From the IMG/VR virus record IMGVR_UViG_3300037231_000294, positions 1-39,593 of that record: 39,593 nt of DNA. The stretch is one strand, 5' to 3'. Shown here piece after piece: positions 34,293 to 39,593 of the stretch. Under the pieces are notes generated by a model. That model did no database searches and was not told where the DNA came from. It saw nothing but the letters and a program-made list of their open reading frames with translations. The position numbers and the translations under genes were made by a program. How positions within the stretch are numbered: the first letter of the stretch is position 1; each line of letters opens with the position of its first letter. This DNA is from a virus.

Positions 34293-34323
34293 ACGCGAAG
34301 CGTCCAGAACGGTACGAAGTACC
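34293..34323 (+). promoter_or_regulatory. Copy 2 of the dyad element, between parA and the RHH-like gene
   Basis: GCGTCCAGAAC followed by the perfect dyad GGTAC-GAA-GTACC. It abuts the parA stop and lies just ahead of the RHH-like gene. A site for the RHH-like protein (operator and/or centromere) is the natural reading. Confidence 0.65.
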
Positions 34324-34977
34324 TCATGCGCGCGCCTCCAGGTATGTGCCTTCGCGTGCGGCGTTCAGGATGAAACAGAGTTCCTTGCCGATTGCGACAT
34401 AAGCCGCCCACGCTCGCGCGGCCTCCGGATCCTTGGCCTTGTCGACGATGCAGCCTGCCAGCGCTGCTTTCTTGAAGGCCTCCAGCCGAGGTGTCTGACC
34501 TTCGAACACGGGAACGTTCGCTGTTGCCAGCAGCTTGCGCAAATTGGCGGCCGCGCTGGCTTCATACGAGGCCACGCAAGTCAGCAGCACGCGATAGTTC
34601 GCGCCGCCGATCTCCTGCAGCGCTCGGATCGTCTCACCCAGGCCGTTTGTGTTCTGCGCGCCCGGCATCGCGGGAATCACCAGCAGGTCGCATCCTTCGG
34701 CCGCGGCTTTCAGGTCCTCGCCGCTCGGCTTCTGCCCGGTGTCGATCACGAGGTGGTTGTAATTGCGTGCCAGCTTCGCAGCCTGCTCCAGCGCGGCCAC
34801 TTTGAAAGGGAAGCCACCGTTTTCAGCGTTGCCGCGTTCGCTCCACGCCCGCGCGTCCTTGGTCGTATCGCCGTCCAGCAGCAGCGTCGGCGCCAGGGTT
34901 TCGAGGTACGCTGCCAGATGCACGGCCGTCATGGTCTTGCCGACTCCGCCCTTGTAACTCGCTACCGTGATGATCAT
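34324..34977 (-). CDS. parA: ParA/MinD-type partition ATPase (217 aa)
   Basis: The deviant Walker A SYKGGVGKT at residues 7-15, with both the signature Lys9 and Lys14, identifies a ParA-superfamily ATPase. A switch region LLLDGDTTKDARAW (Asp near 38) and VIDTGQKP follow. The short length, with no N-terminal HTH, is type Ib-like (ParF), which pairs with RHH partners such as ParG, and an RHH-like gene follows. Such pairs position plasmids or phage-plasmids in the cell. In an integrating phage it may act in a transient replicative state or as a regulator. The ATG overlaps the upstream TGA (ATGA), and a dyad element lies across its start. Confidence 0.85.
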   Translation of the reverse strand: MIITVASYKGGVGKTMTAVHLAAYLETLAPTLLLDGDTTKDARAWSERGNAENGGFPFKVAALEQAAKLARNYNHLVIDTGQKPSGEDLKAAAEGCDLLVIPAMPGAQNTNGLGETIRALQEIGGANYRVLLTCVASYEASAAANLRKLLATANVPVFEGQTPRLEAFKKAALAGCIVDKAKDPEAARAWAAYVAIGKELCFILNAAREGTYLEARA

Positions 34978-35171
34978 GGAACTTCGTTCCGTTCTGGACG
35001 CTTTGCGGGAAGGCCCGCGGCCGGGGCTTGGGTTGTTTGGGTTGTTTGGGCGTTTGCATAATCGGGTGGGATATCCCAACATCCGAACACCTCGCACCCG
35101 GTGTCGTCGTAGCCGCAGATCGGGCATCGCGGCTTCACGGATTGCGGCGGTTTCCGGTTTCCCTCGCTCAC
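34974..35171 (-). CDS. Small Cys-rich (zinc-ribbon-like) protein ahead of parA (65 aa)
   Basis: The protein contains RCPICGYDDTGCEVFGCWDI, four cysteines in a CxxC...C...C arrangement, followed by a Thr/Gln/Pro-rich tail. The GTG at 35171 is chosen because GGAGG is 4 bases upstream and it overlaps the previous TGA (GTGA). The stop overlaps parA. Probably a small metal-binding early protein; no known function. Confidence 0.6.
   Translation of the reverse strand: MSEGNRKPPQSVKPRCPICGYDDTGCEVFGCWDIPPDYANAQTTQTTQAPAAGLPAKRPERNEVP
34978..35007 (-). promoter_or_regulatory. Copy 3 of the dyad element, at the parA start
   Basis: On the minus strand this reads GCGTCCAGAAC, then the perfect dyad GGAAC-GAA-GTTCC, which ends directly at the parA ATG. 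It lies within the end of the upstream coding region and is inverted relative to copy 2, so parA is framed by the two. Confidence 0.65.
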
Positions 35172-35224
35172 AGAACCTCCGTCCATCGATGCCAGTACTC
35201 CAGAACAATCCGAATCCAGCTCAC
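35168..35224 (-). CDS. Micro-ORF (18 aa) with its own ribosome-binding site
   Basis: A GTG at 35224 overlaps the stop of the 31-residue ORF (GTGA) and has GGAGG five bases upstream. The frame reads MSWIRIVLEYWHRWTEVL and stops overlapping the next GTG. It may be a real peptide with an amphipathic, Trp-rich helix, or a device that keeps ribosomes coupled along the message. Too short to judge from sequence alone. Confidence 0.4.
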   Translation of the reverse strand: MSWIRIVLEYWHRWTEVL

Positions 35225-35316
35225 CGTCGCCTCCGATTCCACCAGCGCCTCAGCCGCGGCCATGCCAGCCACACCAGCAAGCCGATGCAGGCTCCGATCG
35301 CGCCCAGCGCCGCCAT
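35221..35316 (-). CDS. Tiny single-span membrane protein (31 aa)
   Basis: An ATG at 35316 overlaps the stop of the rep gene (TGATG), with GGAGG about eight bases upstream. The product is one hydrophobic helix (AALGAIGACIGLLVWLAW) followed by a strongly basic tail (RLRRWWNRRRR), a positive-inside anchor. Small phage membrane peptides of this sort can act in exclusion or host membrane effects; no specific match. Confidence 0.5.
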   Translation of the reverse strand: MAALGAIGACIGLLVWLAWPRLRRWWNRRRR

Positions 35317-36464
35317 CACAATCGCCTCCGCTCTTCGAGCCGCTTCTCGTCGATCGCCCACAGCCCGGTCTCGCGCCAGATCGCCTCGCCGAAGAACCGC
35401 TCCAGCCGGTACGGCCCAATGCGCAGCAGGCCCGCGCGGCCGAGCTTGGAATACTCTCCACGCGCCTCGATCATCCGCTCGGCGATCGCATTCCAGTTCG
35501 GCCGCTCGTCGGTCATGCCCGCCTCGGCGCACATCGCCCGTTCGATCACCGCGGCGCGCCGGCGCCCGCTCAGCCCGCACTCGCGCAGCACCTTCGCCAC
35601 CGCCTCGCGCAGCCCGGCGATGGTCTCCGGCTCTTGCCCCTCATGGGAAAAGTTTTTGCCGTTGGGTTTGGCTTCGGCTTTTGCCGTGAGGATCGAAGCC
35701 GCGGCGCCCCCGCTTGCGGGGGTAGGGGGGGTACTTAAAGATTTTCTAGATAGATTAAGTACTTTAAAGGGGTCGTCTGTCGCGGACAGTACCCCCCCAT
35801 TTCGCGGACAGTTACCCCCCTTTTCGCGGACAGTACCCCCCTGTTTCGCGGACAGCACGAGGTCTACGATGGTCGTTTTCCTCAGAATTTCACCCACAGC
35901 CTCGAAATCAGCCCCACTGTCCGCCACGCGGACACCCCTCTCGCCAGAGCCTTCAGGAGCCGTCGCCTCCATATGTCCGTTCGTAGAGCCGTTCGGAGGC
36001 GCATCTCCGCTGCCGGGGCCCCCTTGCGGCCATCCATTCCCACCGTCTGGCGGCGGTTCAGACCCACCCCCCTCATCGTCACTGTCCGCCACGCGGACAC
36101 CCATCCGTCTGCGGATCTCCTTCTCGCCCAACTTCGCCAATTTGCGTAGATCGCCCAGCAGAAGCATCGGCCGCTCCTCCGTCCCACCCGGCTTTTCGAC
36201 GATCATCCCCACTCGCTCGAGGACCCTCAGGTACTTCGAGACGGTCGTCTTCGACATCATGGCGTTGTTGCCGATCACACGCAGGCTCAGGTCGAAGACC
36301 GGGTTGTTGGCTCGGGTTGGGATCAGGTAAGTCATCACTTGGTAGAGGTGCGTTGCCTCACGGCCGATGATCGGGAGGAAGAACGTGTAGAGGTCGTTTT
36401 GGACCCATGACCATCCCCCGTCCCGCTGGTCGCGCGCGTCAATTTTCTCGTCTTCTGGCTGCAT
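35316..36464 (-). CDS. Replication initiator protein with N-terminal winged helix (382 aa)
   Basis: Residues about 15-110 form a winged helix-turn-helix (FDLSLRVIGNNAMMSKTTVS, then KYLRVLERVGMIVEKPGG), as in phage and plasmid initiators. A Gly/Pro-rich low-complexity linker follows (about 125-235). A C-terminal helical domain (GLREAVAKVLRECGLSGRRR; WRETGLWAIDEKRLEERRRL) may recruit a helicase or loader. The gene contains four 22-bp iterons, an AT-rich patch and paired GTCCGC-CAC-GCGGAC dyads, so it probably binds and melts an origin inside itself, as lambda O does. No separate helicase or loader gene is visible, so the host DnaB pathway is likely used. Confidence 0.75.
   Translation of the reverse strand: MQPEDEKIDARDQRDGGWSWVQNDLYTFFLPIIGREATHLYQVMTYLIPTRANNPVFDLSLRVIGNNAMMSKTTVSKYLRVLERVGMIVEKPGGTEERPMLLLGDLRKLAKLGEKEIRRRMGVRVADSDDEGGGSEPPPDGGNGWPQGGPGSGDAPPNGSTNGHMEATAPEGSGERGVRVADSGADFEAVGEILRKTTIVDLVLSAKQGGTVREKGGNCPRNGGVLSATDDPFKVLNLSRKSLSTPPTPASGGAAASILTAKAEAKPNGKNFSHEGQEPETIAGLREAVAKVLRECGLSGRRRAAVIERAMCAEAGMTDERPNWNAIAERMIEARGEYSKLGRAGLLRIGPYRLERFFGEAIWRETGLWAIDEKRLEERRRL
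35707..35770. other. AT-rich patch beside the iterons, candidate DNA unwinding element
   Basis: In otherwise very GC-rich sequence, 35731-35770 is mostly A and T. It holds the perfect inverted repeat GTACTTAA (35731-35738) / TTAAGTAC (35755-35762). Directly left is a GC hairpin, CCCCCGC-TT-GCGGGGG at 35707-35722. The AT-rich patch touches the iteron array, as in lambda ori. Confidence 0.65.
35779..35866. repeat. ori: Four 22-bp iterons (phage origin) inside the rep gene
   Basis: The core CGCGGACAG recurs at 35781, 35803, 35825 and 35847, exactly 22 bases (two helical turns) apart, each of the first three followed by TACCCCCC-type text. Phased direct repeats within an initiator gene next to an AT-rich patch are the plan of lambda ori. 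They encode residues about 200-229 of the protein, where the sequence is low-complexity. Initiator binding is inferred. Confidence 0.75.
35919..35933. promoter_or_regulatory. Dyad GTCCGC-CAC-GCGGAC, first copy
   Basis: A perfect inverted repeat containing the iteron core half GCGGAC in both orientations, 53 bases right of the last iteron. It encodes GVRVADS in the protein, as does the second copy. Confidence 0.5.
36084..36098. promoter_or_regulatory. Dyad GTCCGC-CAC-GCGGAC, second copy
   Basis: This is identical to the copy at 35919-35933, 165 bases away. Sharing the GCGGAC core with the iterons suggests that the same protein binds it, perhaps for autoregulation or origin handcuffing. Confidence 0.5.
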
Positions 36465-36581: not shown

Positions 36582-36875
36582 TCAGCTCTGGCGATTCTCC
36601 GCGGCCTCCTTTCCTCTCCGAACAACTTCGTCGGCGTCGATCGCTCGCGCGGCGTCCGCCTCATACTGGGCGACGAGGCCTTTGGTGTAGACCAACTCTT
36701 CTTCCGTCGTGGGGCCGCGCAAAGAGCTAACCCGGATCGGATCCGCATCCGCGAACAGGATGTTGTCGACGCCGTCATCGGCCAGCTTCGCGAAGCCCGC
36801 GCGGATCGCGGCCTCTTCGCTCTCCGCATCGTCGACCTCAACCGCACCGTTGAACTCAACTCGCCACTTTGGCAT
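36582..36875 (-). CDS. Small acidic early protein (97 aa)
   Basis: The protein starts with a beta strand (MPKWRVEFNGAVEVDDAESE) and continues as a helix (EAAIRAGFAKLADDGVDNIL), the pattern of small phage alpha/beta proteins of unknown role, then an acidic helical C-terminus. GGAGGTGCGCG before the ATG is a strong ribosome-binding site located within the end of the upstream gene (20-base overlap). It is not recognised. Confidence 0.65.
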   Translation of the reverse strand: MPKWRVEFNGAVEVDDAESEEAAIRAGFAKLADDGVDNILFADADPIRVSSLRGPTTEEELVYTKGLVAQYEADAARAIDADEVVRRGKEAAENRQS

Positions 36876-37173
36876 CGCGCACCTCCATCGCAAGTTCTTT
36901 ACGCAGCTCGTCGATGATGACGGCCGCCATGGAATAGCACGACAGGCGCTGCCCCTGTTGTTTCTTGAGTCCGATCCTCAGGAGCTTGCTGATCGCGTTG
37001 GCCAGCGCGAGCCGGAAGCGCGCGACACAAAGCGGAGAGTCGCAGACGGTGGCCTGATCGTCATACCAGCTGCAACCCTCAGGGCAGGCGCATCGGTCGG
37101 TGCACCGGCAGTAGCGGCATCGCCCAGGCTGAGCGGGCGCGAGGTTCATAGATGATCTAAACTTCCCCTTCAT
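36856..37173 (-). CDS. Cys-rich early protein with CRYCRCT domain (about 105 aa)
   Basis: The motif CRYCRCTDRCACPEGCSWYD, followed by CDSPLC, is the same metal-binding type as in 31859-32326. A helical C-terminus (FRLALANAISKLLRIGLKKQ; AAVIIDELRKELAMEVRDAK) follows. Two starts are possible: an ATG at 37173 with AGGAGG ten bases upstream, chosen here, or an ATG at 37149 directly ahead of the Cys domain. It overlaps both neighbours. Confidence 0.65.
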   Translation of the reverse strand: MKGKFRSSMNLAPAQPGRCRYCRCTDRCACPEGCSWYDDQATVCDSPLCVARFRLALANAISKLLRIGLKKQQGQRLSCYSMAAVIIDELRKELAMEVRDAKVAS

Positions 37174-37354
37174 AATCGCGATACCTCCTGGCGTACTCCG
37201 CGTCACTCGTCGTCGGCTGCAGGTTGACGGGTGGACCAAAGTGGCGCTCGCACATCACACACTGGCGCTTGTCCGGGTCGCACCGTGAGGAGCAATCGAC
37301 GCAGCGGCCTACTCGAGTCTCTGGGGGGAACCGCTTCTGTAAACTAGCCGACAT
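37157..37354 (-). CDS. Small zinc-finger-like protein, first gene of the leftward early operon (65 aa)
   Basis: CVDCSSRCDPDKRQCVMCER gives four cysteines in two CxxC-type pairs, probably one zinc site, with a basic Arg/Tyr-rich tail (AEYARRYRDYEGEV). AGGAG lies eight bases before the ATG. The PL candidate ends about 25 bases upstream, so this is the first product after induction, the place of lambda N. No antitermination signature is visible, and that role is only a positional thought. Confidence 0.65.
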   Translation of the reverse strand: MSASLQKRFPPETRVGRCVDCSSRCDPDKRQCVMCERHFGPPVNLQPTTSDAEYARRYRDYEGEV

Positions 37355-37380: not shown

Positions 37381-37416
37381 GATGTTTTATTACACCATCT
37401 GTATGGCGTGTCAAGC
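37381..37416 (-). promoter_or_regulatory. PL/OL: leftward early promoter with operator dyads
   Basis: On the minus strand TTGACA (37414-37409) and TAATAA (37392-37387), 16 bases apart, form a strong sigma-70-type promoter pointing at the early operon. It overlaps GCTTGACACGC and the imperfect dyad GATGGTGT-AAT-AAAACATC (37381-37399). The 36 bases match PR/OR (37846-37881) at 33 positions in inverted orientation. Confidence 0.8.
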
Positions 37417-37460
37417 CATAGTCGCCGCGCAGGATTGCAAGGCGCTGCGTGGAGCTGCGG

Positions 37461-37799
37461 CTATGCGATGCGCGAACGATCTCCCAAAACGAAGAGAATG
37501 CGCTCTAACTTCGCCTCGACTGCGGCCAACGCCTGCGAGTTGTCGTTGGGTGCGGAACTCTTCGCAGCCCCAGCAGGTAGCCCACGTAGTGACGCCTTTG
37601 GTTCCTCAGTAAACAATGTGACCAAGCCGACATTCAGTGCCATGGCGATCCGTTCCAGATTCGTCTTGGTCCAGGTGTAGTCGCCGCGCTCAAGCTTCGA
37701 TAGATTGCTCGGGTTCATCTGGGCTAGATACGCGAGCTCCTTCTGCAGCAGGCCCTTTGAAAGCCTGATTTTTCGGATGTTCGCTCCCACTATGTCCAT
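37461..37799 (-). CDS. CI-like lysogeny repressor, short XRE type (112 aa)
   Basis: Residues about 5-65 are a classic XRE/HTH_3 domain (NIRKIRLSKGLLQKELAYLA, then MNPSNLSKLERGDYTWTKTN). The C-terminus is a short helical region (QALAAVEAKLERILFVLGD) probably for dimerisation. There is no LexA/CI-type protease domain, so RecA-driven self-cleavage is not expected; an antirepressor or another route would be needed for induction. The gene lies between PL/OL and PR/OR and is transcribed leftward, as cI is in lambda. No clear promoter of its own is visible; activation from OR is possible. Confidence 0.8.
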   Translation of the reverse strand: MDIVGANIRKIRLSKGLLQKELAYLAQMNPSNLSKLERGDYTWTKTNLERIAMALNVGLVTLFTEEPKASLRGLPAGAAKSSAPNDNSQALAAVEAKLERILFVLGDRSRIA

Positions 37800-37845
37800 A
37801 GGCTATTCTTTCAACGAATGGTGTGAGACGCCTTGCAATGGTAAC

Positions 37846-37881
37846 GCTTGACAAGCCATAATGATGGTGTAATAAAACATC
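37846..37881 (+). promoter_or_regulatory. PR/OR: rightward promoter with operator dyads
   Basis: TTGACA (37848-37853) and TAATAA (37870-37875) are 16 bases apart. The perfect dyad GCTTG-A-CAAGC (37846-37856) covers the -35, and GATGGTGT-AAT-AAAACATC (37863-37881) covers the -10. GGAGG at 37883 follows at once, so the leader is about 10 bases long. It is an inverted near-copy of PL/OL. Confidence 0.8.
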
Positions 37882-38146: not shown

Positions 38147-38449
38147 ATGGCCGCGACCAACCTCACCCGCATGCCCGTACCCCGGGTCGATCGCCGGTCC
38201 AAGCTGGCAGCCGTGCCCGACGCGAAGCCCGGCAACGGCAAGATCGAGAAGCTCTTCTACCGCCGCCACGAAGCCGCCTATGCCCTCGGCCTGCCGCTGC
38301 GCTCGATCGACTACATGATCGCCGACCATCGCATCCACACCCGCAAGTACGGCCGCAACGTGCTCATCCCCTCGTCCGAGGTCAAGCTCGCCGCCGAACG
38401 CATCATGCGCGACGAAATGTGCAGTGGAGATAGTGGCGTTCGCGTATAA
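38147..38449 (+). CDS. HTH protein next to integrase, excisionase candidate (100 aa)
   Basis: Residues about 38-85 (YRRHEAAYALGLPLRSIDYM, then IHTRKYGRNVLIPSSEV) show the winged-helix pattern of the excisionase HTH_17 group: E-A-A-x-x-L-G-x-S-x-x-x-I-x-x-x-I, then K-x-G-R-x-x-L-I-P. A basic N-terminal arm precedes it. It sits 2 bases after the Cro-like gene and directly before integrase, so it is co-expressed with Int and is a better Xis candidate than 30795-31028. AGGAAG lies before the ATG. Confidence 0.7.
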   Translation: MAATNLTRMPVPRVDRRSKLAAVPDAKPGNGKIEKLFYRRHEAAYALGLPLRSIDYMIADHRIHTRKYGRNVLIPSSEVKLAAERIMRDEMCSGDSGVRV

Positions 38450-38456
38450 CGGGTGG

Positions 38457-39593
38457 ATGGGCGCGGCACTGAAGCCAGAGAAAAAGCACCGCGGCGTCTA
38501 CGAACATCCCAAAGGCAGCAGGGTTTACTGGTGCCAGTACTTCGCCGACGGCAAGCGTCACCGCGAGCGCGCCGGCAACAAATCCACCGCCATCTCGCTT
38601 TATCAAACCCGCAAGGCCGCCATCCGCGCCGGCGAGAAGCTGCCCGTCCTGCGCAGCTCCCACACCGGCTTCGGCGAGCTGCTCGATGACCTGCTCCGCC
38701 ACACCCTCGCGCACAACAAAACCCACGCAGACTACGTCGAGAAAGCCGCCCTGGTGCGCAAGCAATTTGGATCGATGCGCGCCGCGAAGCTGACTGCCGA
38801 GGCGATCGAGAAGTGGATCGACGCGCGCGGCATCGAGGCCGCCACCTTCAACCGCTACAAGGCGTTCTTCAGCCTCTGCTTTCGCCTGGCTCTGCGCGCC
38901 GGAAAGGCCGACATGAATCCCGCCACGTTGATCTTTCACCGCCGCGAGCCGGCCGGCCGCAAACGGTACCTCACCCGCGAGGAATACGTAACTCTTTTAG
39001 GCCGCATTGCCCAGGTGCCGGAGCCAGGGACCGAAAAGCAGGCTGCCGTGGCGGCCACACGTGCGCTGGCGTTTCTAGTCTCCGTCTTCACCGGCATGCG
39101 GTCCGGCGAGCAATTCTCGATCGATTGGAGCCAGGTCGACTTTGAGCGCGGCGAGATCCATCTCACCAAAACCAAGAACGGCGAGGACCGCGACGTCCCG
39201 ATGGTGAGCCTGGTCCGCGGCGGCCTTGCGGCCGAGCGCGATCGGGTGCGGCCCAAGCGATCCGATAAAGTCTTTCCCCGGCCGCGCAAAGGGAAGGGAG
39301 CCTGGTCGACGGCCTGGTTCGAAGCGGCGGTAGAAGACTGCGGGATCGACGACTACACCTGGCACAACAACCGGCACACCTTCTGCTCCTGGCACGCGAT
39401 CGCGGGCACGCCGCTCAAGACCATCCAGGAGCTCGCCGGCCACAAGACCATCACCACCACCGCCCGCTATGCGCATCTCTGCCCCAGCCATCGCAGCACC
39501 GAGGCGGAGCGCATCGTCCAGGCGCCGCCGAAGAAGCGACGCAGCAACCCCGCCAACTTCGCAACTGCCACCAAAACTGCCACCGGCACATAA
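38457..39593 (+). CDS. int: Tyrosine-recombinase integrase (378 aa)
   Basis: This integrase inserts and excises the prophage at the tRNA attachment site. The N-terminal arm-binding domain (KHRGVYEHPKGSRVYWCQYF), the SAM-like core-binding domain (about 70-155) and the catalytic domain are complete. Catalytic residues: R215 (TGMRSGEQ), K240 (LTKTKNGEDRDVP), H303-x-x-R306 (HNNRHTF; the usual HxLR has Asn here), H329 (AGHKTITTT) and Y338 (ARYAHL). I chose the ATG at 38457, 7 bases after the upstream stop; an in-frame GTG at 38424 would add 11 residues. The last codons encode TATKTATGT from the AACTGCCACC repeats. Confidence 0.93.
   Translation: MGAALKPEKKHRGVYEHPKGSRVYWCQYFADGKRHRERAGNKSTAISLYQTRKAAIRAGEKLPVLRSSHTGFGELLDDLLRHTLAHNKTHADYVEKAALVRKQFGSMRAAKLTAEAIEKWIDARGIEAATFNRYKAFFSLCFRLALRAGKADMNPATLIFHRREPAGRKRYLTREEYVTLLGRIAQVPEPGTEKQAAVAATRALAFLVSVFTGMRSGEQFSIDWSQVDFERGEIHLTKTKNGEDRDVPMVSLVRGGLAAERDRVRPKRSDKVFPRPRKGKGAWSTAWFEAAVEDCGIDDYTWHNNRHTFCSWHAIAGTPLKTIQELAGHKTITTTARYAHLCPSHRSTEAERIVQAPPKKRRSNPANFATATKTATGT
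39563..39584 (+). repeat. Right pair of AACTGCCACC repeats, in the integrase 3' end
   Basis: Copies at 39563-39572 and 39575-39584 have the same 12-bp period as the left pair at 205-226. They are coding and at the prophage end facing attR. A candidate for the second integrase arm. Confidence 0.5.

Follow-up and report, generated by a model that had tools for sequence, protein, structure and literature searches.

The placement of a repressor gene between two operator regions (OL-cI-OR) is already known from phages lambda, P22 and Rhizobium phage 16-3. In lambda (NC_001416), OR1-3 are located between the divergent genes cI and cro, a second set of three sites lies over PL past cI, and the operators overlap both promoters; OL and OR are 2.4 kb apart with rexA/rexB between them, and the 237-aa CI belongs to the LexA family. 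The c2 region of P22 (NC_002371) is a compact OL-c2-OR arrangement with three sites on each side, in which the gene of the 216-aa repressor stands alone. Both phages have the integrase on the side of PL and the replication genes on that of PR. In case of 16-3 (immC, NC_011103), OL1/OL2 lie over PL and OR1/OR2 over PR, the promoters point outwards, and gene c (263-aa product) is the only gene between them; int/xis are on the PL side, and no cro is annotated beside PR. Partial parallels are provided by phage 933W, whose OL lacks a third site (PMC3317979), and by lactococcal TP901-1 CI/Mor, where a repressor without protease domain acts with several related operators (PMC11149083).

The window analysed here is the whole IMG/VR record (39,593 bases, 63 % GC), which may itself be a fragment. 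Genes for a GpA-type terminase, portal and major head proteins on its minus strand indicate a tailed phage. Its immunity region (Table 1) is very probably (estimated probability about 0.87) a bipartite OL-cI-OR switch of a temperate phage, as judged from the sequence. This agrees with the original prediction and is supported by three lineages with matching blocks, orientation and flanking genes, each with five sites of one class.

The annotated operator sets of lambda, P22 and 16-3 occupy places matching those in the window. The likeness to lambda comprises the position of both sets and their overlap with both promoters, that to P22 the compact layout, and that to 16-3 (the comparison covering organisation and block similarity) the paired sites over outward promoters. 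The original prediction of a very compact form thus holds with respect to compactness but not to uniqueness, since P22 and 16-3 also have the repressor gene alone between OL and OR. In contrast to these phages, CI of the window comprises only 112 aa, and the integrase is on the PR side; the operon polarity is the reverse of that in lambda and P22, and, differing from 16-3, a third predicted OR site and a cro-like gene are present. Three hallmarks of a lambdoid switch in the strict sense are absent from the window, namely a CI autocleavage domain, three OL sites and the int-PL/replication-PR order. The likeness to 933W, a lambdoid phage with a lambdoid repressor, concerns the OL layout, and TP901-1 differs in that Mor forms a complex with CI rather than being a DNA-binding Cro, and in that OL, OR and OD are arranged otherwise. 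Such a plan has precedents, but its combination with a short, peptidase-less CI, 3+2 operators, and operons that have the integrase at PR/cro and a DnaD-like gene at PL is new. The design hence extends beyond the classic lambdoid proteins to a 112-aa repressor without peptidase/cooperativity domain and to exchanged lytic operons.

Table 1 Predicted features of the immunity region and its flanks (window positions)
Feature	Position	Strand	Basis
DnaD-like replication (helicase-loader-like) protein, PL side	35316..36464	-	phrog_186 E=0.0016
First ORF under PL, 65 aa, Cys-rich	37157..37354	-	ORF position and translation
OL1 predicted operator	37381..37399, centre 37390	-	over PL -10; GATGGTGTAATAAAACATC on - strand; PWM 26.1, leave-out 22.3
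PL promoter, leftward	37386..37414	-	TTGACA 37409-37414, 17-bp spacer, AATAAA 37386-37391 after TGT
OL2 predicted operator	37402..37420, centre 37411	-	over PL -35; TATGGCTTGACACGCCATA; PWM 26.0, leave-out 22.8
CI-like repressor, 112 aa	37461..37799	-	Pfam HTH_3 E=2.4e-9; phrog_3 transcriptional repressor E=6.9e-12
OR3 predicted operator	37817..37835, centre 37826	+	adjoins cI start; leave-out PWM 16.8
OR2 predicted operator	37842..37860, centre 37851	+	dyad over PR -35
PR promoter, rightward	37848..37876	+	TTGACA 37848-37853, 17-bp spacer, AATAAA 37871-37876 after TGT
OR1 predicted operator	37863..37881, centre 37872	+	dyad over PR -10
Cro-like XRE protein, 83 aa	37893..38144	+	HTH_3 E=4.3e-10; GTG start after AGGAGG
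Excisionase-like HTH protein, 100 aa	38147..38449	+	HTH_17 E=0.009, phrog_33884 E=8e-4; weak
Tyrosine integrase, PR side	38424..39593	+	Phage_integrase E=3e-23, phrog_1 E=7e-56

Inverted blocks with predicted promoters in the window and in its relatives

The blocks at 37381-37416 and 37846-37881 match in inverted orientation at 33 of 36 positions, exactly where the original prediction had placed them, and share 19 identical bases in a row. The pair is the top inverted 36-mer anywhere in the window, and the best inverted 36-mers in 20 whole-window Markov shuffles reached only 25-28/36. The likeness of the two blocks is unusually high, since the lambda counterparts match at only 26/36 positions and those of P22 at 22/36, while the blocks of 16-3 are not detectably alike (best inverted 36-mer 17/36). 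As had been proposed, TTGACA is present in each block together with one dyad over the -35 and one over the -10 region; the dyad centres are 21 bp apart.

Searches with CI and Cro yielded three viral records of two further lineages (G001/G002 with L004/L005, identical across the region read; G003 with L006). Identities among the three lineages, the window included, are 50, 54 and 59 % for CI and 63-64 % for Cro. Each relative harbours two inverted blocks at matching places, i.e., in the cI-cro gap and on the far side of cI. A degenerate block pattern run over 2.9 million viral contigs matched only these three records, twice each and in opposite orientations; the scan possibly did not cover the record of the window itself, the PR block of which fits the pattern. 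Cro matches in L010/L011 (36 % over 39 residues) were dropped as weak, L010 being AT-rich there and devoid of a comparable block pair, and the single genome-contig match (L012, 36 % over 44 residues) reflects HTH likeness only. Literature searches did not turn up any publication on these phages.

The blocks are predicted to represent outward promoters PL and PR on either side of the cI-like gene. The motif TTGACA-16-TAATAA originally assigned to them can indeed be read in both, but its TAATAA part is not shared by the relatives, whose PR blocks have CGATAA at this place. Invariant in all six blocks of the three lineages is TTGACA-17-RATAAA with TGN before the -10, so that TGN-RATAAA with a 17-bp spacer is the better reading. 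PL and PR were not returned by a generic promoter scan, because the scan requires T at -10 position 6; its sole match (37833) is at chance level and was discarded. For a cI promoter (PRM), neither scan nor inspection revealed a consensus match in 37800-37870.

Comparison across lineages bears on the origin of the block likeness. PR blocks of G002 and G003 are alike at 33/38 positions, as are their PL blocks (33/38). In the window, PL resembles the phage's own PR (33/38) more than either block resembles those of the relatives (28-31/38). Given roughly equal distances between the three phages, it is reasonable, though unproven, that the window lineage homogenised its two inverted copies. Moreover, the 11-mer CGCCTTGCAAT occurs upstream of both blocks (37434-37444 and 37829-37839) in the window phage only, and 0 of 5000 flank shuffles reproduced it. 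One copy overlaps the right half of OR3, possibly a trace of OR3 having been copied to OL.

Such a long inverted repeat, with its 19 consecutive identical bases and the signs of homogenisation (33/38 within versus 28-31/38 to relatives, shared 11-mer), might also serve as recombination substrate for flipping the cI segment and thereby confer phase-variable immunity. This is, however, very improbable: the orientation of cI relative to cro is the same in all three lineages, OR3 is present on the cro side only, conservation tracks operator and promoter positions rather than the whole repeat, and no dedicated invertase was seen beside the repeat. Gene conversion would account for the homogenisation without any inversion.

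Predicted operator sites and regulators

Operators were modelled as symmetric 19-bp sites (half-site ATGGYKTR) from twelve promoter dyads, with OR3 left out of the training set. The model predicts exactly five strong sites per phage in all three lineages (OR1, OR2, OR3, OL1, OL2). OR1 and OL1 cover the -10, OR2 and OL2 the -35 of the respective promoter, both pairs with 21-bp spacing. OR3, which was absent from the original prediction, is situated between PR and the cI start; its position relative to OR2 is -25, -25 and -26 bp in the respective lineages. When the PWM was trained solely on the other phages, the window sites scored 22.8, 22.3, 22.3, 18.3 and 16.8 bits, the next best non-operator site reaching 9.9, and two other leave-out tests recovered five sites each. 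One site above 16.8 appeared in 2 of 20 shuffled windows; the prediction of OR3 therefore draws on position and conservation and not on the score alone. Near PL, no third site above -2.9 bits was found in any of the three lineages. The predicted layout is thus 3+2, with OR1-3 between divergent cI and cro and with OL1 and OL2, of the same operator class, over the outward promoter past cI in all three lineages.

The two kinds of dyad are not alike in every detail (GGCTTGACAAGCC versus GGTGTAATAAAAC), either kind obtaining its highest scores with the PWM built from that kind. Two regulators might hence divide them, CI binding one class (e.g., that over the -35) and Cro the other (that over the -10). 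This division is unlikely, since with the PWM of either class, OR3 and sites of the opposite class still come out among the best of the window, the outer half-site ATGG is common to both, and much of the difference follows from the -35 and -10 hexamers lying within the dyads. The recognition helices are nearly invariant in the three lineages (DPSNLSKLERG/NPSNLSKLERG in CI, PSHYRR[VI]E in Cro) and fit conserved operators. Cro of the window is about 40 % identical to the annotated Cro analogue of Fels-1, and its model displays an ordinary XRE fold with weak structure matches.

CI consists, in all three lineages, of a single N-terminal HTH and, behind a linker that varies, an amphipathic helix at the C-terminus. 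No peptidase/S24 domain was detected in CI of the window (HTH_3 being its sole domain) or of the relatives, which renders RecA-stimulated self-cleavage of the lambda kind unlikely. Induction would most likely depend on an antirepressor or on an altered CI level instead of such cleavage; PMC3121763 describes induction driven by an antirepressor. A role of CI as controller of a restriction-modification system, suggested by the nearest solved structures by sequence (C.BclI), was rejected, since the genes examined include no restriction-modification gene.

In the proposed switch, short CI dimers on OR1/OR2 and OL1/OL2 would shut off both lytic operons. The 21-bp spacing corresponds to two helical turns, so that neighbouring dimers would lie on the same face of the DNA, permitting cooperativity. 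Cro may act on the same sites, probably with the strongest effect at OR3, thereby turning off cI transcription and favouring lytic growth. By means of the doubled promoter block, a single repressor level would set both operons alike.

As in lambda, CI bound at OL and OR might in addition form a DNA loop needed for full repression. The original prediction had considered looping by the short repressor possible. It would be compatible with the distance of about 0.5 kb between the two operator sets, which are of one class, and with the C-terminal helix that follows a variable linker in all three CIs and could oligomerise. However, the OL1-OR1 spacing amounts to 482, 571 and 985 bp in the three lineages with no common helical phase, so that looping receives no support from comparison; OL3, the partner of OR3 in lambda, is missing, and CI lacks the lambda-type C-terminal domain. 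The AlphaFold model of CI (helix 87-111) is of low confidence and, with a mean pLDDT of 54, too poor to settle oligomerisation. A loop is therefore doubtful. Three divergent lineages with five predicted sites each would constitute a small system for probing the role of the second operator set, a question sharpened by the variable spacing and the absence of the lambda looping domain.

Going further, one may tentatively speculate that a minimal, non-cleavable repressor runs a lambda-type switch whose lytic promoters are kept nearly identical by gene conversion between the inverted copies, with swapped operons (cro-xis-int versus replication), both set by one repressor level, and induction independent of SOS cleavage.

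Proposed operons under PL and PR and adjacent genes

The gene order originally predicted, with the integrase at PR and replication at PL, was borne out in the window, and homologues occupy the same sides in the relatives. To the right of cI, cro, the excisionase-like gene and the integrase gene are tightly packed on the plus strand and would form the PR operon (cro-xis-int). In G002 and G003, extra genes, some on the opposite strand, are located between cro and the integrase gene, so that int would probably be transcribed together with cro in the window only. The PL operon would comprise small genes and the DnaD-like replication gene. The DnaD assignment is weak; every relative has a stretch homologous to this gene on its PL side.

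The first two ORFs under PL (37157-37354 and 36856-37239) encode CxxC-containing, zinc-binding-like products without family match, including the 65-aa Cys-rich protein, and may be considered as antirepressor candidates.

In G002, a 173-aa ORF between cI and OL (L005:3318-3839; no Pfam, PHROG or NCBIfam match) takes the place of lambda rexA/rexB and is a candidate exclusion gene expressed in lysogeny. Two adjoining ORFs of the same phage (L005:1050-1748), between cro and the integrase side, resemble by eye a HigB/HigA toxin-antitoxin pair.

The window phage, which also carries an integrase, encodes a ParA-like partition ATPase (34324-35208; phrog_164, E=1.8e-25). The arms of another strong inverted repeat (30 nt, 90 % complementary) are located directly behind the 3' end of this gene (34294-34323) and inside it (34978-35007); the repeat possibly represents a partition or regulatory site.
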